The notes under the pieces: generated by a model
The model's input: the letters and a program-made list of their open reading frames with translations, nothing else
What the model was told of the DNA's origin: nothing
Databases searched by the model: none
In this document: positions 35,887 through 53,905 of the stretch, in pieces
Numbering within the stretch: the first letter of the stretch is position 1
How the letters are laid out: each line of letters begins with the position of its first letter
Position numbers and translations under genes: made by a program
From: Myxococcales bacterium
Lineage (GTDB): Bacteria; Myxococcota_A; UBA9160; UBA4427
Assembly: GCA_022563535.1 (NCBI GenBank)
Contig: JADFNE010000028.1
Span: forward strand, 1 to 54,984
Length of the DNA: 54,984 bases
Reading direction: 5' to 3'

Positions 35887-38800
35887 TCAACTCGCGATGA
35901 TATCGAGATCGTCGGAAATGGGAACCAATTCGGCATCGCCGCCAGGGTCTGAGCGATCGACGGTTTCACGCTCGCGTCTGCGGAAGAACTGCAGCCAGTC
36001 ATCCAGAATGACATAGCCACACGGCACCAGGAACAACGTCATGATCGACGCGTAGAGCACGCCATATCCCAACGAGATCGCCATGGGGATCAATGGCCGC
36101 GCGGGAGCCGCCTCTTCGAACATCAAGGGCAGAAGACCCAGATAGGTGGTGACAGAGGTCAGCGCGATGGGCCGGAAGCGCTGAATGCTCGCCGTGGTAA
36201 CGGATTCGAGGAAGCCCATTCCTTGGTCGCGTCGTCGGTTGATCGTATGCACCAGGACCAGGGACGCATTCACGACGACTCCGGACAGAGCCACGATCCC
36301 GAGAATCGAAAAGAACACGATGTCCCAACCCATCAGGAAGTGTCCCAAGATGGCGCCGACCGCTCCAAAGGGAATTACACTCATGATGATGAAGGGCTGG
36401 ACATAGGACTTGAGCGGGACTGCAAGCAAACCGTAGATGATCAACAGCGCGAGCAGAGCGCCCCGCATCAGGCCGAGCATTGCCTCGTGGTGATGCTCTT
36501 GTTCACCGCCCAACCGGTAGGTCACGCCTGGAAACTCGGCGAGCAGCTCGGGAAGCTTCTCTTGGACGCTTGCCAAAATCATCTCGGGCGTTGCGATGGC
36601 TCGGTCGACATCGGCGGTCACGGTGACGACGCGCTGTCGATCCGTGCGCTGGATTGTCGCAAATCCCCGGGTCAATTTGACGTCCGCTACGGCGGCGAAC
36701 GGTACTTCAACGCCTTCTGATGTTCGGATGCGCATGTCGTCGAGTGAACTGAGGGAAAGGCGCTCTGCTTTCGGATACCGCACCATGACGCGGACTTCGT
36801 CTCGGCCTCGTTGAATGCGCTGAACTTCTTCTCCATGAAACGATTGGCGAACCTGGCGTGCGAGATCCTGCTGGGTGATGCCAAGCAACCGAGCTTCGTC
36901 GCGCAGGGCGAGCTGGACTTCCTGCTTGCCCGCGCGAAACGAGTCGGCGATGTCCGATATGCCGACATAGGTGGCGAGTTCGGCCCGGAGCTTCGCGGCC
37001 GCCCGCGCCAACGTTTCAATCTCGCCACCCCGGAGTTCGATGTGGATCGGTATTCCCACCGAAAATGACATCACGTTGAACGACAACTCGACTGCGTCTG
37101 GCACCGGACCACTGAGCTCCCGCCAGCGCTTGGCCACGTCCACCGACTCGATTTCTCGCTCCATCGCCGAGATCAGTTCCAAGCCCACCTCGGCGATGTG
37201 GCTGCTTCCCGCATTGGCATCGGGCGGTTGTGGCCCCTCACGTGCCAACCGGTCGCCGATTGAAACCAAAACGTGGGTAATCACTGAGGAGCCTGGAGTC
37301 GACTCGTCGAGTTCGAGCTTCAAGCGGGCAGCCGCGTCCTGGAGCTGGGCGACGGCGGCTTCAGTGCGCTCGAGGGGAATGCCCTGGGGCATCGTCAAGG
37401 TGGCGTAGATCATGTCGCCATCCATCGGTGGAAAGAACTGATACCGCATACGCCCGCTCGAGAAGAGCGCAACGGTCAGGATCAGAATACCTACGGCGCC
37501 CGCGCAACTCGCGTAGCGCCAGTCGATAGCCCGGTCGAGCAAGTTCCCATAGCCATTGCGAGCGAACCGCTCCAAACCATTTGCCATGCCCTGCTGAAAC
37601 TTTTGCCAGCGCGCTACCAACGGGTTGGGCTGGCCGTGTTTCGACGATGTGCGTCGGTGGGCGAGATGGGAGGGCAGGATCAGCTGCGATTCGATCAATG
37701 AAAAAACCAGGCAGATGATTGCCGCGTACCCGATCACTCCGAAGAACTGGCCCATGCTTCCCGGCACGAGAATCAGGGGCAGGAACGCCGCCACCGTCGT
37801 CATGACGCCGAAGGTCACGGGAACGAAGACTTCCAGGGTTCCGTCGATCGCCGCATCTTCCTGGGACTTGCCCATTTGTTCGTGGGAGTGGACGCTTTCG
37901 CCGATCACGATCGCGTCGTCGACGAGAATGCCCAGCACCAGGATGAACGCCATCACTGTGAGGGTCGAAATCGAGATGTCATTCGCGGGGAACAGCATTA
38001 CCGCGCCGAGCAACGAGATGGGGACACCGGCCGCCACCCACATGGCGAGCCGAAAGCGCAGGAACAGCGTGAGAACCAGGAGTACCAGGAGAATGCCGCT
38101 GCGGGCATTGCGGGTGAGCGCCTCGAGACGGATTACTAGGTCAGCTGCTTCGTTGTTGAAGATCAGCACTTCGACGCCTTCGGGTACCGACGCCAAGAAC
38201 GAGTCCACCCAACCTTCGACGTCCCCGGCCGCTCTGAGAATGTCCTCATCTCCGATCAAACTCACCTCTACAATGAGAGCCGGTCGACCGTTGAACTGGG
38301 CCCGCAAATCGGAGTCTTCGAAGCCGTCAACGATCGTGGCAATCTCGCCGAGGCGAACCAGGGTGCCGTCGTTGCGGGTCAAGACGATGATTTCTTCGAA
38401 CTCAGCCCCTGCGTACGCCTGTCCGATGGTGCGCAGCAGAATCTCGCCACCTCGGGTCTTGACCGACCCACCCGGCAGATCGAGCGATGATCCCCGTACC
38501 GCGTGGGCAACCTGATCGATCGTGAGGCCGTGTCGCCGCAGGGTGTCTTCCGAAATCTCGATCGAAATTTCGTAGCTTCGGTCGTACTTGAGTTCGGCCT
38601 GGGACACGTTCGGGAGGTCGGCAATTTCGTCCCGCGCGCGTTGGCCCAACAGCTTCAGGTCGCGTTCGTCCACATTGCCGGAGATCGCCACCTGAAGCAC
38701 TTTTCGCTTCATGACGAGCTTTGAGATCACCGGTTTTTTGGCATTCGCTGGAAACGTATCGATGGCGTTGACCTTGCTTTTGATTTCGCTGACGGTGGCA

Positions 38801-39108
38801 TCGATATCTGCACCCACCACCAACTCCAGCGTAACCACACACGCGTCCTCGACGGCCCGGGTATTGATACGCAAGATGCCTGGCGTGCCGTCGATCTCCT
38901 CTTCGATGCGGAGACAAATGGACTCTTCGATTTCGGCCGGCGATGCGCCCAGATATTCGACGGTGATCTGGGCGGCGTCGGTATCGATTGCTGGGAACTC
39001 TTCCTGACGAATGGTCGGCAGGGTGAGGAGCCCTCCGGTGACCATCAGGAACATCAGTAGATTGGCCGCGACCGGATTGTGGACGAACCACGCGATCATG
39101 CGACTCAC
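35887..39108 (-). CDS. RND efflux pump inner-membrane transporter
   Basis: This is a 1073-residue protein with the twelve-segment AcrB/MdtB plan. It starts MIAWFVHNPVAANLLMFLMV and has large periplasmic loops after segments 1 and 7. The proton-relay Asp pair is in LGILVDDAIVIGESVHSHE. The opening FVHNPVAANL and lack of heavy-metal motifs place it with hydrophobic-compound exporters rather than CusA types. It works as a trimer with the adjacent adaptor. Its ATG overlaps the adaptor stop (ATGA). No outer-membrane TolC-like gene is in the window, so it must use one encoded elsewhere. Confidence 0.92.
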   Translation of the reverse strand: MSRMIAWFVHNPVAANLLMFLMVTGGLLTLPTIRQEEFPAIDTDAAQITVEYLGASPAEIEESICLRIEEEIDGTPGILRINTRAVEDACVVTLELVVGADIDATVSEIKSKVNAIDTFPANAKKPVISKLVMKRKVLQVAISGNVDERDLKLLGQRARDEIADLPNVSQAELKYDRSYEISIEISEDTLRRHGLTIDQVAHAVRGSSLDLPGGSVKTRGGEILLRTIGQAYAGAEFEEIIVLTRNDGTLVRLGEIATIVDGFEDSDLRAQFNGRPALIVEVSLIGDEDILRAAGDVEGWVDSFLASVPEGVEVLIFNNEAADLVIRLEALTRNARSGILLVLLVLTLFLRFRLAMWVAAGVPISLLGAVMLFPANDISISTLTVMAFILVLGILVDDAIVIGESVHSHEQMGKSQEDAAIDGTLEVFVPVTFGVMTTVAAFLPLILVPGSMGQFFGVIGYAAIICLVFSLIESQLILPSHLAHRRTSSKHGQPNPLVARWQKFQQGMANGLERFARNGYGNLLDRAIDWRYASCAGAVGILILTVALFSSGRMRYQFFPPMDGDMIYATLTMPQGIPLERTEAAVAQLQDAAARLKLELDESTPGSSVITHVLVSIGDRLAREGPQPPDANAGSSHIAEVGLELISAMEREIESVDVAKRWRELSGPVPDAVELSFNVMSFSVGIPIHIELRGGEIETLARAAAKLRAELATYVGISDIADSFRAGKQEVQLALRDEARLLGITQQDLARQVRQSFHGEEVQRIQRGRDEVRVMVRYPKAERLSLSSLDDMRIRTSEGVEVPFAAVADVKLTRGFATIQRTDRQRVVTVTADVDRAIATPEMILASVQEKLPELLAEFPGVTYRLGGEQEHHHEAMLGLMRGALLALLIIYGLLAVPLKSYVQPFIIMSVIPFGAVGAILGHFLMGWDIVFFSILGIVALSGVVVNASLVLVHTINRRRDQGMGFLESVTTASIQRFRPIALTSVTTYLGLLPLMFEEAAPARPLIPMAISLGYGVLYASIMTLFLVPCGYVILDDWLQFFRRRERETVDRSDPGGDAELVPISDDLDIIAS

Positions 39109-40286
39109 GAGCGTGTCTCCCGGTCCGGTGCTTCATCGTCGGCTATCGGTATCACCCGCATGCCGTCCACTACGACCTGAAGCGGCGAGACACAGAGGCG
39201 CTCACCTGGTTCCAGCGCTCCCACGATCAGCACGTCATCGCCGTCAATTCGCAGGATCTCGACTTTGCGCTCGCGCAGTCGATCTTCGCGGTCAATCACG
39301 AGGATGTGGTCCTGATCGCGCATCGCGTAGCGAGGAACGATGATGATGTTTTCCACAACAGGGCCCTCGATCTCGGCTTGCACGAACAAACCAACCGTGA
39401 GGGGCGGCTTGTCTTCGTTTCCCGGTTCGACCGCATAGGGATCTGCGACCCGCGCGATTACGTGCACCATGCGGCTCTTCGGATCAATTTCGCCCTCGGT
39501 GCGGACCACGGTCCCGCGCCAGGTGTGTTCCTTGCCTGCGAACCGCGCGCGCAGATGCACGGTGGGGAACTCGACGTCTGCGGCCATGGGATGGCGCGGA
39601 AGATCGAGGTACGCGAGCTGGTAATCCGCGATCGGCAAGCGAATCTCCGCGTAGTCGGTTGCGTATAGAGTTGCCACCGATGCGCCCGGGCTCACGACTT
39701 GCCCGACATCGACTCGCTCTTCGCGCACCCGCCCGTCATACGGCGCTCGAATTTCGGTTCGTTCGAGATCCCACTCGGCTTGCTCGAGTGCGAGCTTGGC
39801 GTCGGTAAGGTTGGCTCGTGCCACCTGATCATTGCGCCGCGCCTCACTGAGCTGCACCGCACTGGCGACGCTTCGGGCCGACAGGCTCTGCTGGCGCTCG
39901 AGTTCGTCCGCTGCAAACTCGACTTCGCTCGCGGCACGCGCCACGGCCACCCTCGCTCGCGCCACAGTCATGTTGTAGCCACGCTGTTGAATGCGAAGCA
40001 GCGCTTCACCTTCTTTGAAGAATCCACCCGACACCAGTACCGGTGATACCCACACGACTCGCCCCGAAACCTCCGGCACCAACGTGCTCTCGGTGCGCGG
40101 AGCGACGGTTCCCTGGGTGCGCACGAGCATCTGCACGCTCTGGGGTTGTGGATCGCGGACCCTTACCGCGGTCACCGCGTGCTCGGGGACGATGTTCTCG
40201 ACCGAAGGCGCAGTGGCGACCAGGAGAAAGGCTCCCAGGCTGGACAAAATCAGGACGAGCGCAGGTACCAGCAGTTTCTTCTTCAC
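39105..40286 (-). CDS. RND periplasmic adaptor (membrane fusion protein)
   Basis: This is a 393-residue HlyD/AcrA-like protein. An N-terminal membrane anchor (LLVPALVLILSSLGAFLLVA) is followed by the beta-barrel/lipoyl halves (VAPRTESTLVPEVSGRVVWV and IRAPYDGRVREERVDVGQVVSPG) around a coiled-coil hairpin at about 110-170. Later segments (GLFVQAEIEG, VPRYAMRDQDHILVID) match the membrane-proximal domain. It links the pump to an outer-membrane channel. It overlaps both the regulator upstream and the pump downstream by four bases, so all three are translated together. Confidence 0.9.
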   Translation of the reverse strand: MKKKLLVPALVLILSSLGAFLLVATAPSVENIVPEHAVTAVRVRDPQPQSVQMLVRTQGTVAPRTESTLVPEVSGRVVWVSPVLVSGGFFKEGEALLRIQQRGYNMTVARARVAVARAASEVEFAADELERQQSLSARSVASAVQLSEARRNDQVARANLTDAKLALEQAEWDLERTEIRAPYDGRVREERVDVGQVVSPGASVATLYATDYAEIRLPIADYQLAYLDLPRHPMAADVEFPTVHLRARFAGKEHTWRGTVVRTEGEIDPKSRMVHVIARVADPYAVEPGNEDKPPLTVGLFVQAEIEGPVVENIIIVPRYAMRDQDHILVIDREDRLRERKVEILRIDGDDVLIVGALEPGERLCVSPLQVVVDGMRVIPIADDEAPDRETRS

Positions 40287-41008
40287 GACGACATCCTTTC
40301 CAGGGACAGGCGCTCTCGTTCATTCGTCATGGCCGCAATGGCGTGGATTCGAAGTTCGAGGGTTAGTTCAATTACCGCGTCTGACGCGGCTGCTCCGTCT
40401 TTCGCATCGATCGCCTCTGCGAGCTTGTCGAACAAGGCTTGATTCGGAGAAATCGGAGGTAGGAGGTGCGGGTGGCGCCTGTCGAGCTCTTCAATGAAGC
40501 CGGTCTTGACGCCTCTCCGCACCAACGTCAACACGAGATTGTCGCTGGCCTCTACGAAGAGATCGACGAGTTGATGCATGAGTTCGATGTGATCGGGGTT
40601 GGAAAGCTTCTGCTTGGCTCTGGCGAGAAGCTTGTGGATATCGACTCGCTGCTGTTCGGTGGCGCGTTCGGCGCACAATCGAGCGGCCGTGCTGAACAGC
40701 CCGCTCATCACCTCAAACACCTGGTCGACAATTTTGGGATCGGGGGGATCTTCGAGATTGATCAGGTGTTCGACGACGTCGAGGCTGGCCTCCTCGATCG
40801 GCGCAACCCGTGCTCCGCCGGGATGAATTTTGGCGACCCCGAGTTGCTCCAGGCGTTTCAACGCCTCGCGCACCGCTCCTCGGTGCACTCCAAAGCGTTC
40901 GGCCAGATCTCGCTCGGAGGGCAGGCGTTCTCCGCAGCGATACTGGCCGCGCAGAATTTCGTCGCGCAACTCCGCAGCGATTGCCGCGCTTCGAGAAATC
41001 GATTGCAT
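40283..41008 (-). CDS. FadR-subfamily GntR transcriptional regulator
   Basis: This is a 241-residue protein. The winged helix is at about 1-75 (ELRDEILRGQYRCGERLPSE, then RFGVHRGAVREALKRLEQLG). The C-terminal all-helical FCD domain (about 85-235) binds a ligand, often with a metal held by Asp and His residues. As first gene of the operon, overlapping the adaptor gene, it probably represses the pump and itself until an effector binds. The palindrome TTGGTC-T-GACCAA about 100 bases upstream fits the FadR-type operator pattern and is the likely site. Confidence 0.88.
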   Translation of the reverse strand: MQSISRSAAIAAELRDEILRGQYRCGERLPSERDLAERFGVHRGAVREALKRLEQLGVAKIHPGGARVAPIEEASLDVVEHLINLEDPPDPKIVDQVFEVMSGLFSTAARLCAERATEQQRVDIHKLLARAKQKLSNPDHIELMHQLVDLFVEASDNLVLTLVRRGVKTGFIEELDRRHPHLLPPISPNQALFDKLAEAIDAKDGAAASDAVIELTLELRIHAIAAMTNERERLSLERMSS

Positions 41009-41303: not shown

Positions 41304-41804
41304 TCAGTATTCCGGAACGTAGATCTCGCATGCGAGCTTGTCCCCGCCAGCGATCACCAGCAGGCGACCGAGAGCGAGGTATTGGCCGATCATCATGCCC
41401 AGTTCCGCGATCTCAGCATCTGCAAAGCACTTGCGAAGTTCCGCTTTGAAGGCCGAATCCACGGTCCGAAAGTCTGTTGCGAGCTTCTCTGCGAAGCGCA
41501 CAGCCAGGGCCTCCCGGGGATCGAGTTTGCGCTCTGCTTCGGGCAAGTGAATCTGTGCAATGGTCTCTTCGTCGAGTCCCTGACGCGTCGCCGACGCGTA
41601 CCGAGCGAACAGTCAGGTGTCGCATCCATTGAGGGCGGCAATCTTGAGGCGTGCGAGCTCCTTGATGCGACAGGGAACGACTCCCTCCAGATGTCCTGGG
41701 CGGAAGAACTCGAAAAACCGGGCGAAGTGCTCGGGGATGAGCTCCATGAGGTTCAGGCTTTCATCGGCGGGATTCGAGTTCGCGATGGGTTGCATGCTGT
41801 CCAT
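41304..41804 (-). CDS. Putative selenoprotein: AhpD/CMD-like with CxxU redox motif
   Basis: This is one 166-residue protein when the in-frame TGA at 41613-41615 is read as selenocysteine; ordinary calling splits it. The start is ATG 41804, five bases after AAGGAG. The carboxymuconolactone decarboxylase/AhpD-like region runs RIKELARLKIAALNGCDT, then U64, then LFARYASATRQGLDEETIAQI, and on to an intact helical C-terminus (EALAVRFAEKLATDF). The TGA falls exactly where the second Cys of the CxxC redox pair belongs (C61-x-x-U64). A hairpin with a GGC loop follows at SECIS distance. The gene ends with another TGA. A Cys-to-stop mutation is the alternative, but the hairpin and intact downstream frame argue against decay. 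Confidence 0.75.
41583..41599 (-). promoter_or_regulatory. Candidate bacterial SECIS element
   Basis: Reading the minus strand, a perfect 7-bp stem ACGCGTC-GGC-GACGCGT starts 13 nt after the TGA, so 20 nt separate the TGA from the apical loop. The loop starts with G. These features fit the bacterial SECIS model: a stem-loop just downstream of UGA, with a G in the first two loop positions. It lies within the coding region, as in other bacterial selenoprotein genes. Confidence 0.7.
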
Positions 41805-41989
41805 GTTGACTCCTTGCAGCACTGGGGTTCGGCCCGAAAGTGTATCAACCCGCAAATCGGGTTGCCCGCGCCGGAGATTCTCAACCCAGCCCGATCGATA
41901 TTTGTATATATAGAAGCAAGAGTTGCACTCGGGTCTGCGCAGGCCTCCCCAAGCGGCTCATGGCAAGACCCAGAGCGACTCCGACTGTC

Positions 41990-42709: not shown

Positions 42710-43507
42710 ATGAACTGGATGGCTCCCCCGAATCGCTATGTGGCTATATGCGCGGCGCTTCTTCTCTCTCTGGTGGTTGTCCCCGTGGCAGCTCTGTCGG
42801 AACCGCTCAACGAAGCCAAGTCGGTCCGCCGTCAGGGCAACGTCGACGGCGCCGAATCGCAAAAGCGAATCGATACGGTGAGCGCCGAGACCGAGAGTTT
42901 GTTCACGCAATATCACAATGCGTTGGCGCAGATCGATTCAATTCGCATCTACAACGGTCAGATGAAGAGATTGATCAGCGACCAGGACAAGGAGATCGCG
43001 TCGCTGCGGGAACAGGTGGATCGTGTCGAGGTGGTCGGCCGCAGCGTCACCCCTCTGATGCTTCGCATGATCGAAGCCATTGCCGCGACCGTGGAGCTCG
43101 ACATTCCGTTTCTCGCAGATGAACGTGCCAAGCGAATTGCGGACCTGCGCGAGTTGATGGGCCGGGCCGACGTGAGCAACGCTGAGAAGTACCGACAGAT
43201 CATGGAGGCCTATCAGGTGGAGAACGAGTACGGCCGCACGATCGAAGCCTACCGCTCGACCTTGGAGGTGAACGGCGTTGAAGTGAAGGCCGACCTGCTT
43301 CGCTTCGGCCGCATCGCCCTCGTGTATCAGACCCTGGATCAAAAATCGGCTGGGGTGTGGAACCAAAAACTTGGCGTTTGGGAACCCCTTGATGCCGGTT
43401 ACCGATCGGCGATCAAGGAAGGACTCAAGATTGCGCGCAAGCAAATGGCGCCGGATCTGATCCGGTTGCCACTCCCAGCCGCCCGGGCTCTGGGAGGAGC
43501 AAGCTGA
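42710..43507 (+). CDS. DUF3450 periplasmic protein of a TonB system
   Basis: This is a 265-residue protein. A signal peptide (YVAICAALLLSLVVVPVAALS) is followed by a coiled coil at about 48-110 (SLFTQYHNALAQIDSIRIYN, QDKEIASLREQVDRVEVV) and a globular C-terminal part (TIEAYRSTLEVNGVEVKADLLRFGR split over about 185-250). DUF3450 proteins are regularly the first gene of TtpC-type TonB clusters and act in the periplasm, possibly linking TtpC to the cell wall. The ATG follows AAAAGGAACGAGC. Its stop and the next start overlap by one base (TGATG). Confidence 0.88.
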   Translation: MNWMAPPNRYVAICAALLLSLVVVPVAALSEPLNEAKSVRRQGNVDGAESQKRIDTVSAETESLFTQYHNALAQIDSIRIYNGQMKRLISDQDKEIASLREQVDRVEVVGRSVTPLMLRMIEAIAATVELDIPFLADERAKRIADLRELMGRADVSNAEKYRQIMEAYQVENEYGRTIEAYRSTLEVNGVEVKADLLRFGRIALVYQTLDQKSAGVWNQKLGVWEPLDAGYRSAIKEGLKIARKQMAPDLIRLPLPAARALGGAS

Positions 43508-44898
43508 TGCGCGCAGCTACAACGACTCGGTTGCTGATTTGCAACATGGCTCTGGCAATAGTCTTCGGCTTCGCGGCGGTGTCGACCGCGCAAGACCAGC
43601 CCAAGTCCCCCGAACCCAAGACCCTCGAAGAATTGCTCGAGATGGTGAAAGAGGGTTTCATTGCCGAATCCGACGACAACGCCGCGCGCGAGGCGCGGTT
43701 TCTGGCGGCTCGGAACGATCAGCAACGCCTGCTCGACGATGCCCTCGCAGTGCTTGCTGGCGAGGAAGCGATCAGCCAGGCCCTCGAATCCACCTACAAC
43801 GACAACGAGCCCTTGATCGGCACGCTCCAGGAAACGTTGACAGAGCGCCTGGGACAGATGGGTGAACTCTTTGGTGTCGTGCGTCAGGTCTCGAACGATT
43901 TGAGTGGGCAGGTCTGGGAATCGCTGACGAGCTCACAGCTCAGCGATCGCACAATACTTCTCGACAGACTCGGTCGCAGCAAGGAACTCCCGTCGACCAA
44001 GGATCTCGAAGGTCTCTGGTTCGAAATGCAGCGGGAAATCACCGCCCAAGGCGAGATCGAACGTTTCGTCACGACGGTTTTGACTACAAAGGGAGGCGAG
44101 GTCGAGCGCGAGGTCGTCCGAGTGGGTCCGTTTACCGTGATTTCGAATGGCGGCTACCTCTTGTGGGATCCCAAAGCACAACAGCTGGCAGAGCTACCGC
44201 GCCAACCTCCTGCCAAGTACCTCGACACTGTGGAGGGTTTCGAGACGGCCACCACCGGTTTCGTCAAATTGGCGGTCGATCCATCAAAGGGCGCACTGCT
44301 CGAATCCCTGCTCGAAACACCGAGTCCGCGTGAACGCGTCGAACAGGGCGGTGGCGTCGGTTACGTGATCATCTGCCTCGGTGTGGGGGCATTGCTCGTG
44401 GGTGTCTGGCGCTGGTTCCTGATCTCCGCGACCAGTCGCAAGGTCAGGGCCCAGCAGAAGAGTAGTAGGACCAGCTCCGACAACCCGCTCGGTCGCATCT
44501 TGGTGATCCCCGAAGCTTCGAAGGACATGGACAGTGAAGTGCTCGAGCTGAGGCTCGACGAGGCGGTGCTCAAGGAAAGCAGTGATCTCGAGCGCTACCT
44601 GTGGGTGGTCAAGACGGTCTCGGTCGTATCGCCGCTGCTCGGCCTGCTCGGCACGGTGACGGGCATGATCAAGACCTTCCAGTCGATCACGTTGTTCGGC
44701 GCCGGCGATCCCAAGATGATGGCGGGGGGTATTTCCGAGGCTCTGGTCACCACGATGCTCGGGCTCATCGTCGCGATTCCCCTGGTGCTGCTCTACGACA
44801 TACTCAGCAACAGTGCCAGTCGCATTATCGACATTTTGGATTATCAGAGCGCAGGCCTGATCGCGTCACGAGCGGAGGGGATCGATGTGGGAGATTGA
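43507..44898 (+). CDS. ttpC: TtpC-like long ExbB/MotA-TolQ-ExbB family protein
   Basis: This is a 463-residue protein. The signal peptide (LLICNMALAIVFGFAAVSTA) and a periplasmic region of about 270 residues precede the membrane part. That part has three segments: VGYVIICLGVGALLVGVWRWFL, then VVSPLLGLLGTVTGMIKTFQS, then ALVTTMLGLIVAIPLVLLYD. This ExbB core with a large N-terminal extension is the TtpC type known from Vibrio TonB2 systems. It starts within the stop of DUF3450 and overlaps the second ExbB gene by 14 bases. It should bridge the TonB complex to the periplasm. Confidence 0.88.
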   Translation: MRAATTTRLLICNMALAIVFGFAAVSTAQDQPKSPEPKTLEELLEMVKEGFIAESDDNAAREARFLAARNDQQRLLDDALAVLAGEEAISQALESTYNDNEPLIGTLQETLTERLGQMGELFGVVRQVSNDLSGQVWESLTSSQLSDRTILLDRLGRSKELPSTKDLEGLWFEMQREITAQGEIERFVTTVLTTKGGEVEREVVRVGPFTVISNGGYLLWDPKAQQLAELPRQPPAKYLDTVEGFETATTGFVKLAVDPSKGALLESLLETPSPRERVEQGGGVGYVIICLGVGALLVGVWRWFLISATSRKVRAQQKSSRTSSDNPLGRILVIPEASKDMDSEVLELRLDEAVLKESSDLERYLWVVKTVSVVSPLLGLLGTVTGMIKTFQSITLFGAGDPKMMAGGISEALVTTMLGLIVAIPLVLLYDILSNSASRIIDILDYQSAGLIASRAEGIDVGD

Positions 44899-45439
44899 GG
44901 CCTTCGCAGCCGTCCGCGGGTTCATTGAAACCGGCGGCAATGTGCTGCTGGTCATCGCCTTCGTGACGGCCACGATGTGGACCCTGATCATCGAGCGGAT
45001 CTGGTACTTCCGCCTGGGATATCGCGTCGATGCCGCAAGGATCGAAGCCTTCTGGAATGCCCGGACTGACCATTCGTCGTGGAACGCGCACATGCTTCGC
45101 GAACTGCTCATGTCTCGAATGGAACTCAAGCTGACCGATAGCTTGAGCATGATTCGCACCTTGGTCGCCGTGTGCCCGATGCTCGGCCTGCTCGGCACCG
45201 TGACCGGCATGATCGAAGTATTCGATGTGATGGCCAGCGGCGGTGGCAACACCCGTGGGATGGCGGCCGGCGTGTCAAAGGCGACGCTCCCCACGATGGC
45301 TGGCATGGTGGCCGCTATATCTGGGATGCTGCTCAGCACCCAGCTCGATCAGTTCGCCGATGGCGAAACATCTCGAGGCCAAGATAGCCTCGAGATCATT
45401 CACACTCCAAAGCGAGATCGAGAGAGTCATGCGACGTAG
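44885..45439 (+). CDS. exbB: ExbB-like proton channel subunit
   Basis: This is a 184-residue MotA/TolQ/ExbB protein. It has three membrane segments: FIETGGNVLLVIAFVTATMW, then VAVCPMLGLLGTVTGMIEVF and TMAGMVAAISGMLLSTQ. It forms the pentameric proton channel of the TonB motor with ExbD. It is much shorter than the TtpC-like paralogue upstream. It starts at GTG 44885, inside the previous gene, and overlaps ExbD by 11 bases. Confidence 0.9.
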   Translation: MWEIEAFAAVRGFIETGGNVLLVIAFVTATMWTLIIERIWYFRLGYRVDAARIEAFWNARTDHSSWNAHMLRELLMSRMELKLTDSLSMIRTLVAVCPMLGLLGTVTGMIEVFDVMASGGGNTRGMAAGVSKATLPTMAGMVAAISGMLLSTQLDQFADGETSRGQDSLEIIHTPKRDRESHAT

Positions 45440-45833
45440 AAGAAACAAACACAGACCGGAAAACGAAGTCAACCTGACCCCAATGCTCGATGTCGTGTTC
45501 ATCATGTTGATCTTCTTCATCGTTACGGCATCGTTCGTGAAGGAGTCGGGGATCGAGATCACTCGGCCCAGTGCGGCGACCGCCACGCGCAACGAAAAGG
45601 GCAATATCCTGATTGCCATCACCAGCACCAATCAGGTGTGGATGGATCGCCGACAAATCGATCCCAAGGCGCTGCGCGCGAACATCGAGCGAATGCGCGC
45701 GGAAAACCCCAACGGCGCAGTAATTATTCAAGCCGACGAAAAGAGCGAAAACGGCTTGCTGGTCAAGGTCATGGACGCCGCAAGGCTCGCCGGAGTCAAG
45801 AGCATTTCCCTCGCGGCCGAGATCATCAAGTAA
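45429..45833 (+). CDS. exbD: ExbD-like biopolymer transport protein
   Basis: This is a 134-residue protein from ATG 45429, the usual ExbD length; the frame is open further upstream but only inside exbB. A basic N-terminus (MRRRRNKHRPENEVNLTPML) leads to one membrane helix with the essential proton-carrying Asp (LDVVFIMLIFFIVTASF). The periplasmic domain follows (NQVWMDRRQIDPKALRANIE). It overlaps exbB and abuts tonB (stop TAA then ATG), so all are translated as a unit. Confidence 0.9.
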   Translation: MRRRRNKHRPENEVNLTPMLDVVFIMLIFFIVTASFVKESGIEITRPSAATATRNEKGNILIAITSTNQVWMDRRQIDPKALRANIERMRAENPNGAVIIQADEKSENGLLVKVMDAARLAGVKSISLAAEIIK

Positions 45834-46445
45834 ATGATTTCGCGGCTTCCGCTCGCGCTCGTGATTGCTTGCGTGGTCACGTTCGGTCTGTTTTGGACCA
45901 TGCAGGCGCTAGTGAGTACCGACGCGCAACTGATCGACAGCAAGCCGTCGCCCAAGATCGAGTTTGTGCGCTTGCGTCGCGACACCACGCCCGAGATCAA
46001 GAAGCGCGAGCCTCCCAAGCGACAAAAACCCGAAGAAGCTCCGCCTCCGCCGGAAATCAATGTGTCCAAGGCCAGCCTCGAACCTTCGGGAGATCTATCG
46101 GCATTCACCGCAAACTTCAACGCGGGTGATGCGCTCGTGGGCGGAGTCGGCATGGGCAGTGGGTCGGATCGGGACGCTACACCGCTGGTGCGGATCGAAC
46201 CCGAGTATCCAATGCGAATGCGCCAGCGAAGAATCGAGGGCGCCGTTGGAATCACCTTCACAATTGCAAAAGCCGGTACGGTAAAGGACGCGCAGATCGA
46301 TTATTCGCAACCTCCCGGCGTATTCGACAAGGCCGCTCTAGCCGCTGTACGCCGTTGGCGTTACAACCCAAAAATCGTGGATGGCAGGGCAGTCGAACGT
46401 CCGGGTCAGAAGGTCTGGTTCCCGTTCTCGATGGAGGACAAGTAG
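45834..46445 (+). CDS. tonB: TonB energy-transducing protein
   Basis: This is a 203-residue protein. A single N-terminal membrane helix (LPLALVIACVVTFGLFWTMQ) is followed by a Lys/Pro-rich spanning region (KKREPPKRQKPEEAPPPPEI). The C-terminal domain starts at about 118 (VRIEPEYPMRMRQRRIEGAV) and has the family ...FDKAALAAVRRWRYNP ending. It carries proton-motive energy to outer-membrane receptors such as the one at 51134. The spanning region is short for TonB, as in TonB2-type proteins that rely on TtpC. Confidence 0.9.
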   Translation: MISRLPLALVIACVVTFGLFWTMQALVSTDAQLIDSKPSPKIEFVRLRRDTTPEIKKREPPKRQKPEEAPPPPEINVSKASLEPSGDLSAFTANFNAGDALVGGVGMGSGSDRDATPLVRIEPEYPMRMRQRRIEGAVGITFTIAKAGTVKDAQIDYSQPPGVFDKAALAAVRRWRYNPKIVDGRAVERPGQKVWFPFSMEDK

Positions 46446-50979: not shown

Positions 50980-51133
50980 CGGAGCGAGGATCGCTCATTG
51001 GGGTGCCACAGTGCAATAGTCTCTACGAGCTGACTCGAGCTCTGGGTCAATATTGAATGGATCGATTCGCGGGGTTCGAAGAGTGTTGCACGTCTATCAG
51101 CAAACAGCGGATCGCATTGCCACCGGCCGCTTG

Positions 51134-53905
51134 ATGTCAGCATGTTGCGCATCGGGTTCCTATTTCGTCCGTTGTTGCGCACTAATTCTATTGTTCATGT
51201 TGCCGGTCGCCCCAAGTGCGAGCTGGGCGCAGGAACCGACCGAGAGCGTGACCGGCGAGGCGCAACCGGGTCCCGTCGAGAGCGAAAGCGTACCGACCGT
51301 CACGGACCCACAGGGCGATGATCTCGTTGAGGGAGATGATCTGGACGAGGTTGAAGCGATCGCAGCACCACCGGCGCCGACCGGCCCGATCCAGCCACCA
51401 GAGGGCTACGAAGTCATCAAGATCAAAGGCCGCGCAGTCAGCGGTATTGAAACGGATGTTCCCGAGTCCGTGACGCAATTTGATGCCGAATCGATCGCAG
51501 CCCTGGGCGCCGGGAACATTGCCGATCTGGCGAAGGTAACACCCAACGTCGAGATTGTGGTCGCGGGGGCGACGGCGGCCACGTTCTTCATTCGCGGCGT
51601 GGGACTCGCTGATTTCAGCGCCAATGCGGTGGGCGCCGTGGCCATCTACAAAGACGATATTGTCATGAACTCACCCGCAATTCAGCTCGGGCTGCTGTTT
51701 GACTTGCGCGCTGTGGACTTCATCCTGGGGCCGGCGGGTATTGGCCCGCATCGAAACGCGTCGGCGGGCGCAATCAAGTTATACGGAAACAAGCCGACGC
51801 TGGAGTACGCGGCTCGGGTCAAGCAGAGTGTTGGCAGTTTCTGGAGCAAGGATGCCCGCGACGCGTTCATTCGCGACACCGAGGGTTTCATCAATCTTCC
51901 GTTAATCGACGAGATGTTGGCCATGCGCGTTGCATTTCGCGTGTCCAAGGTAGATCCGTTCATGACCAACGGTTGTGGCGATGCGCTGCCCTTCGCCGAC
52001 CGGATAGGACCACCGCTTCTTTTTCCTCCGGGCATGAATCCAGCTGCGGTCTGCAGCGAAGGTTTGATCCGCCGCAATGCCATTTCTCCAGTGCCAGAGA
52101 ATCTGCCAAAGAAAGTGGGCGGAAGAGGAGCCTGGGCAGCGCGTGGAGCGCTCCGGTTGCAACCTCCTGGCACGGACATGGACTGGCTCGTCAGTTTTCA
52201 TGGCAGTCGCCTGGATCAAGATTCAACCCTCGGACAGGCGATCGGCGTCGGCGGCACCATCGATGCGTTGGGAGGAATAAATTCCCTAGCTTATTGGGAA
52301 CCCGATACTTTGGCGGAATACAGCGAGACTAAATGGTTTAGTGCGGGGGTCACGAGCGAAGCGCAATTTCGTCTGCTACCCGCCGCCGACAGACGTGACG
52401 CAGAAAACGAAGCCAAAGTGGTGCTGGCCAAAAACTTGGCGGACCGGCCGTTGGATAGAAACCCATACCGCGGTGACTACAATCGCGTAGGGAAAACGAC
52501 CCTTGATATCTGGGGCGGGCATCTGCGAGGAGAGTTTTCTCTCGGGCGGATCGATGTGACGACGATCACCGGATTCGAAACATACGAACGCTTTCGGGAC
52601 CAGGACCGAGACTTTACTCCGGATTCGCTCTTCGAGGCGATCTCGACCGACGAAGCGAAGCAGTTCACCCAGGAGTTCAATCTTTCGGGTCAGCTTTTTG
52701 ATTCTGCAGTTCGCTGGAACCTGGGTGCTTCCTTCATTCAGGAGAAACTCCACAGCAGTAGAATAGACTTTCAGATAATCGCCGGCGGACCGCTTCCGTT
52801 CAAACTCACAACCAAGACGTTTGTCTTCGACGTTGATCAAAACACCTCCAGCTACATGACCTACGGTGACTTCACCTGGGACTTCTTGGAAGATTTTAGT
52901 TTGCAGATGGGCGCTCGATTGAACGTGGAAAAGAAGGACTTCCACGTAGGCCGTACGTCACAAGCTGGGTTCCTGGAGCGCGACCGTTCGGAACGGTGGA
53001 GCGAGCCGACGGGGAAGATCGCCCTCAGCTACCACGTGAGCGATGCCGTGACGTTACACACCAAGTACACCCGCGGTTACAAAGCCGGCCACTTCAATTC
53101 AGGCAATGTTGATTTCAAGGTGGCAGCAAAGCCAGAATTTGTGGACGCGTTCGAGTGGAGTCTCAATCTCAACGCATTCGAGAGCCGGTTCATTGCCCGG
53201 GCGGGTTTCTTCTTCTACAAATACAAAGATTACCAGGTCTTCCTCTTTACCGATGAGCCTGCAGTATTCAACACCCCCAAGCTTGTCATCGTCAATGCGA
53301 GTCGGGTCCAACAATATGGATCCGAGGTCAACCTCACGCTAAAACCGCTACAGGACTGGGCGCCAGAACTGTTGGACGGCCTGAAGCTCGCCGTTGAATT
53401 CGGCTGGCTTGCAAGTGAGTACCTCGATTTTACGAATATCGTCTTTCGTACCAACGTCACGGGCGGAAATATTCAAATCGCGGACGATTTTTCCGGGAAT
53501 CAACTGATCAACTCTCCGAAATTCAAGGTCAGTGGCAACGTCGAGTGGCCGCTCGATTTTGGCGAATGGGGCGAGATCACGCCGCGCTACGGTTTTATCT
53601 GGGTCGACGATCTCCCCTTTGATGCAAGCAAAGGACGAGGGTCGCCGGGTCTGAACTTCACCACCCGGGAAACCTTCGACAGGTTGCCCAAGCACGCCGT
53701 GGGACAGAAGGCGCACTGGATCCACAATGTTCGACTCAGCTACAAGACGCCCATGAGGAATGTCGAAATCTCAGCGTGGGTCAGGAACGTCCTGGACGCT
53801 CGGTACAAGACCTACGCGTTCGATGTGTCGAATTTTTTCCATACCACGATCAACTACGTTGGAGATCCGCGCTCGTTTGGCGTCGACATGGTCATCACCT
53901 GGTGA
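51134..53905 (+). CDS. TonB-dependent outer-membrane receptor
   Basis: This is a receptor of about 923 residues from ATG 51134; the frame opens at TTG 51053. The signal peptide (CCALILLFMLPVAPSASWA) is cut before QEPTES. A Pro/Asp-rich linker precedes the plug domain: YEVIKIKGRAVSGIETDVPESV, whose start is a possible TonB box, then ATFFIRGVGLADFSANAVGAV and the FILGPAGIGPHRNASAGAI loop. The barrel follows, with AVTLHTKYTRGYKAGHFNSG and the C-terminal strand SFGVDMVITW. It resembles receptors for large or hydrophobic substrates such as steroids or glycans. The upstream TonB system could power it. Confidence 0.9.
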   Translation: MSACCASGSYFVRCCALILLFMLPVAPSASWAQEPTESVTGEAQPGPVESESVPTVTDPQGDDLVEGDDLDEVEAIAAPPAPTGPIQPPEGYEVIKIKGRAVSGIETDVPESVTQFDAESIAALGAGNIADLAKVTPNVEIVVAGATAATFFIRGVGLADFSANAVGAVAIYKDDIVMNSPAIQLGLLFDLRAVDFILGPAGIGPHRNASAGAIKLYGNKPTLEYAARVKQSVGSFWSKDARDAFIRDTEGFINLPLIDEMLAMRVAFRVSKVDPFMTNGCGDALPFADRIGPPLLFPPGMNPAAVCSEGLIRRNAISPVPENLPKKVGGRGAWAARGALRLQPPGTDMDWLVSFHGSRLDQDSTLGQAIGVGGTIDALGGINSLAYWEPDTLAEYSETKWFSAGVTSEAQFRLLPAADRRDAENEAKVVLAKNLADRPLDRNPYRGDYNRVGKTTLDIWGGHLRGEFSLGRIDVTTITGFETYERFRDQDRDFTPDSLFEAISTDEAKQFTQEFNLSGQLFDSAVRWNLGASFIQEKLHSSRIDFQIIAGGPLPFKLTTKTFVFDVDQNTSSYMTYGDFTWDFLEDFSLQMGARLNVEKKDFHVGRTSQAGFLERDRSERWSEPTGKIALSYHVSDAVTLHTKYTRGYKAGHFNSGNVDFKVAAKPEFVDAFEWSLNLNAFESRFIARAGFFFYKYKDYQVFLFTDEPAVFNTPKLVIVNASRVQQYGSEVNLTLKPLQDWAPELLDGLKLAVEFGWLASEYLDFTNIVFRTNVTGGNIQIADDFSGNQLINSPKFKVSGNVEWPLDFGEWGEITPRYGFIWVDDLPFDASKGRGSPGLNFTTRETFDRLPKHAVGQKAHWIHNVRLSYKTPMRNVEISAWVRNVLDARYKTYAFDVSNFFHTTINYVGDPRSFGVDMVITW

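Follow-up and report, generated by a model that had tools for sequence, protein, structure and literature searches.

The gene at 41804-41304 on the minus strand of the window (the whole 54,984-nucleotide stretch of Myxococcales DNA analysed here) is almost certainly a genuine bacterial selenoprotein gene, encoding an oxidoreductase of the carboxymuconolactone decarboxylase (CMD)/AhpD fold with SECIS-directed selenocysteine (Sec) at codon 64. This reading follows from comparative evidence of four kinds: the recoding codon itself, evolutionary constraint on the SECIS element, exchange between Sec and Cys among relatives, and a complete Sec machinery in the source genome. The features of the locus, in the order in which they are transcribed, are as follows.

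41810..41815, minus strand: Shine-Dalgarno sequence AAGGAG, recognised from the sequence 5 nt before ATG 41804
41304..41804, minus strand: predicted selenoprotein gene, CMD/AhpD-like, 166 aa with U64, from the translation with TGA read as U, the PF02627 match and the relatives
41658..41660, minus strand: codon of E49, matching the relay Glu of AhpD proteins (Glu36 of PA0269, Glu118 of M. tuberculosis AhpD), judged by its distance of 12 residues from the first Cys
41613..41615, minus strand: in-frame UGA, predicted Sec codon, U64 of C61xxU64, with TGA in 34 and TGC in 2 of 36 distinct members
41601..41603, minus strand: codon of R68, which occupies the site of the relay His in AhpD proteins (His55 of PA0269, His137 of M. 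tuberculosis AhpD), from the alignment
41583..41599, minus strand: putative bSECIS upper stem-loop ACGCGTC-GGC-GACGCGT, from pairing, covariation, frozen stem codons and -9.1 kcal/mol
41306-41304, minus strand: terminal stop TGA of the gene, from the translation

The read-through gene and its hairpin

Open reading frames 41613-41855 and 41304-41546 lie in a common phase on the minus strand, with the TGA at 41615-41613 as their sole separator. The initial annotation had proposed that these two frames form one intact CMD/AhpD-like protein, with the TGA replacing the second Cys of a CxxC pair and a Shine-Dalgarno sequence ahead of ATG 41804. On rechecking, the coordinates proved exact, AAGGAG was found at 41815-41810 with a gap of 5 nt, and translation of TGA as U gave a product of 166 aa with the motif C61-D-T-U64, which passes the PF02627 cut-off (34.1 bits versus a gathering score of 23, E 2.8e-8, residues 25-106). 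Relatives match across the read-through at 53-86% identity.

The hairpin downstream has the geometry that had been described for it. Its arms (41599-41593 and 41589-41583) form seven of seven Watson-Crick pairs around the loop GGC (41592-41590), the stem beginning 13 nt and the apical loop 20 nt after the TGA, and the stem-loop alone has a predicted energy of -9.1 kcal/mol; together with the covariation described below, these are features of a SECIS-type element. By itself, however, such a hairpin is not beyond chance in this GC-rich window. Within the window, hairpins with 7 or more perfectly paired bp, a G among the first two loop nucleotides and a distance in the SECIS range follow 7 of 1615 TGAs, and the rate at arbitrary positions is 0.63%. 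Folding of the locus as a single sequence gave z = -0.34, with a minimum free energy structure that is a different, longer fold than the SECIS stem, and an Rfam scan of the locus returned no match. A structural argument from the single sequence is thus insufficient, and it is conservation across relatives that decides. Another SECIS-like match in the window, at 52960 on the minus strand, was rejected as chance; it runs antisense within a 950-aa plus-strand ORF.

Conservation of the recoding element and the selenocysteine machinery

Scanning 84,980 species genomes for close relatives yielded ten, each bearing TGA at the corresponding codon, in records labelled Myxococcota, Myxococcales, Deltaproteobacteria or plain 'bacterium'. 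The search was extended first to 91 class genomes and later to 379 of the phylum, with a threshold of E 1e-15 or better, and among the latter, matches at this level were confined to one class. Removal of duplicates left 36 distinct members with intact flanks, 34 with TGA and two with TGC at the codon in question, the TGA-bearing members coming from different genera and families within the class. Most of the family genomes are metagenome-assembled, and a few genomes hold two members each, so that strict orthology may not hold for all members and some may be paralogues. One further candidate, from Desulfobacteraceae (L031), was set aside because it comprises just a C-terminal fragment in which no CxxU part can be recognised. 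Alignment places Sec or Cys opposite U64 in every family member, and Cys in the solved homologues, as the initial annotation had anticipated.

Constraint on the hairpin is visible throughout the Sec forms. The GGC triloop stands 20 nt after the TGA in all 34, and the stem pairs at seven of seven positions in 33 of them and at six of seven in the other. The stem sequence of the window itself is retained in 28; among the remainder are stems with paired changes (ATGCGCA-GGC-TGCGCAT, ACGCGCA-GGC-TGCGCGT and ACGCGCC-GGC-GGCGCGT). Across the alignment 99.6% of cells are paired, and 12 cells, at three pairs, are altered on both sides. The covariation score is 0.188; shuffled alignments averaged 0.073, none of the 500 reaching the observed value, and slid partners never exceeded 0.037. 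The bare count of covarying pairs, which 30 of 500 shuffles reach, is less telling because a few lineages account for most of the changes. Furthermore, the codons of the stem are nearly without synonymous variation (GCG 34/34, TCG 29/29, ACG 28/28, CGT 31/31), whereas codons for the same residues (Ala, Ser and Arg) outside it vary widely; some of the two-sided stem changes come with amino-acid replacement. In both TGC members the stem is reduced, to three and four of its seven pairs. These observations support the view that the hairpin is selected as a structure in Sec forms and lost in Cys forms. Taken together, triloop, covariation, frozen codons and decay in Cys forms are hard to explain other than by the predicted Sec recoding, and frozen synonymous sites alongside a covarying SECIS in Sec forms and a decayed stem in Cys forms make this an unusually clean comparative case.

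The machinery for such recoding is present. The source genome (4.63 Mb in 147 contigs, 97.9% complete) encodes tRNA-Sec with anticodon UCA (73 bits), SelB (283 bits), SelD (336 bits) and SelA (540 bits), so that the search for selA, selB, selC and selD suggested at the outset found all four. The SelD of the source genome is itself predicted to be a selenoprotein, with an in-frame TGA followed, 27 nt downstream, by an 8-bp stem with a GGU triloop:

G000, contig C15, 56143-57069, minus strand: SelD gene (L017), in-frame TGA in a GG-U context

SelA was found in 84 of the 91 class genomes, among them all those that carry a close family member. It is also still encoded by the genomes of both Cys members, L062 (genome G073) and L063 (genome G006). 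In a maximum-likelihood tree L062 falls among the Sec forms, its exact place being unsettled, and this position together with the SelA gene suggests a change from Sec to Cys without loss of the machinery.

Two explanations would dispense with selenocysteine. The TGA could be a sequencing error, or a nonsense mutation that disrupted a CMD gene of the Cys type: Cys-bearing CMD genes are common, and the TGC of two members is one base away. An identical TGA in 34 distinct members across genera and families, a conserved protein beyond it and a covarying stem argue against this, and the conservation has already refuted a reading that we regard as vanishingly improbable. Ordinary suppression of the UGA, or its decoding as another amino acid such as Trp, with the hairpin as a by-product of codon usage, is very improbable too, if a shade less so. 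Hairpins are common in a GC-rich genome, and a comparable stem occurs at 0.4-0.6% of positions; against this, TGA is the terminal stop in 24 of the 36 members, members without the TGA have Cys and never Trp, pairing is kept by two-sided changes and lost in Cys forms, and the genome holds tRNA-Sec(UCA) with SelA, SelB and SelD. Of the refuting tests proposed in the initial annotation, all that could be computed were run, and none of them refuted the selenoprotein reading.

Beyond the family itself, six distant CMD paralogues from the same class (L069, L070, L073, L075, L079 and L080; about 31-35% identical) have TGA in place of the second Cys codon of CxxC and a SECIS-like stem of their own, for example CTGCTGA-GGG-TCAGCAG or ACTGTCTC-GGC-GAGACAGT. 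The class apparently harbours more than one CMD subfamily of selenoproteins, several in all and separate from one another.

Active site, proposed mechanism and relation to known proteins

The chemistry of the protein is less readily read from its relatives. Both PA0269 and M. tuberculosis AhpD have a Glu 12 residues ahead of the first Cys and a His four after the second, the proton relay of AhpD-like proteins follows the pattern Glu-Cys-X-His/Tyr-Cys-His, and His55 is invariant among the AhpD-like structures compared (PMC3141380). The present family departs from this pattern: E49 (invariant in 36 of 36 members), C61 and U64 are in place, but the position of the catalytic His is Arg in all 36 (CxxUxxxR), and the His/Tyr position is Thr in 35 members and Leu in one. 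With His replaced by Arg in every member, AhpD chemistry may not carry over. An AlphaFold2 model of moderate confidence (mean pLDDT 80, pTM 0.76) matched the AhpD-like group in Foldseek (PA0269, Atu0492) at TM 0.65-0.68, with weak E-values (best 1.4e-3).

We propose that SelB and tRNA-Sec(UCA) would read the UGA at codon 64 as Sec under the direction of the stem-loop that starts 13 nt after it, with the terminal UGA serving as an ordinary stop. U64 would then act as the attacking selenolate, E49 helping to deprotonate it and the invariant R68 lying close by, and C61 would serve as the resolving thiol. The selenolate may reduce a hydroperoxide or another electrophile, forming a selenenylsulfide with C61 that would be recycled by a thiol reductant. 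Sec at the position of a redox Cys would be expected to confer extra reactivity. The protein may have a peroxidase activity of the AhpD type.

A competing view, which bears on this inferred function and not on recoding, is that CxxUxxxR belongs to a selenoprotein that is no peroxidase and acts on some other electrophile, such as an organohalide or a protein disulfide. We consider this a serious if less probable alternative. The Arg in place of the relay His in all 36 members speaks for it, as do NCBIfam AhpD and peroxidase-related models that score below their cut-offs and the presence of the debrominase Bmp8 among the fold matches. On the other side, AhpD-like antioxidant proteins outrank Bmp8 in the fold search, the AhpD Glu and both redox positions are retained, and the genomic context indicates no substrate. 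Somewhat more doubtful still is the bolder proposal that these proteins form a selenoenzyme family of their own, which dispenses with the AhpD His, reduces something other than a hydroperoxide and is one of several CMD-fold subfamilies that radiated in the class. The active-site Arg calls the usual AhpD peroxidase label into question.

The genomic neighbourhood holds two conspicuous gene groups. Downstream of the selenoprotein gene, a GntR/FCD regulator, a HlyD-like adaptor and an AcrB-type RND pump form one run (35887-41008, minus strand), and in two relatives a GntR gene lies about 2-6 kb from the selenoprotein gene. On the plus strand, DUF3450, two MotA/TolQ/ExbB, ExbD and TonB C-terminal domain genes in a row (42710-46445) make up a TonB-type energy-transduction cluster, and a 950-aa ORF (51053-53905, plus strand) resembles a TonB-dependent outer-membrane receptor in its translation, read by eye. 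No operon partner conserved across the family was found, and the adjacency of the GntR-HlyD-RND and DUF3450-ExbB-ExbD-TonB genes is not kept beyond close relatives, so no function is inferred from context.

Selenoproteins of this kind have been predicted before. CxxU selenoproteins were predicted from Sargasso Sea data in 2005 (four with a CMD domain and 27 AhpD-like; PMC1088965), CxxU CMD/AhpD-like selenoproteins were predicted from GOS data in 2008 (PMC2398784), and a 2026 review lists them (PMC13188914). With the CMD-like CxxU selenoproteins (PMC1088965, PMC13188914), among which 'AhpD-like 2' of the GOS study (PMC2398784) possibly belongs, the window protein has in common PF02627, Sec at the second position and a bSECIS downstream. 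Compared by description with the Sargasso and GOS proteins, the present subfamily differs in being known here only from one Myxococcota class. On the window protein, every NCBIfam model (June 2026) stays below its cut-off. The best, NF053654 (GroundWater_YciW, 'YciW-related (seleno)protein'), matches over the CxxU region with 34.6 against 310 bits, and NF041047 (GSU3128 family (seleno)protein) matches over the same region with 18.7 against 110; judged by these scores, the protein is related to both families and a member of neither. Of solved proteins, PA0269 (2o4d/2ijc/7xw1; E about 3e-9) is closest in sequence and has the relay Glu and both Cys positions in common, followed by Atu0492 (2gmy; E 9e-6), also a fold match; both have Cys where the window protein has Sec, and His where the family has Arg. 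The peroxidase activity reported for PA0269 is no more than weak (PMC3141380). A literature search on Myxococcota selenoproteins found no paper. The description of this gene as a likely undescribed selenoprotein therefore probably stands for the subfamily, which is unnamed and without an NCBIfam model above cut-off, but not for the CxxU CMD/AhpD kind, predicted since 2005: the novelty is at the subfamily level only, published representatives having been compared by description.

Overall, what looked like a broken gene becomes a well-supported selenoprotein family, of a sort that automatic annotation would probably split or shorten. The family also draws attention to a bacterial class whose genomes nearly all encode SelA and in which Sec apparently occurs in several subfamilies of the CMD fold.
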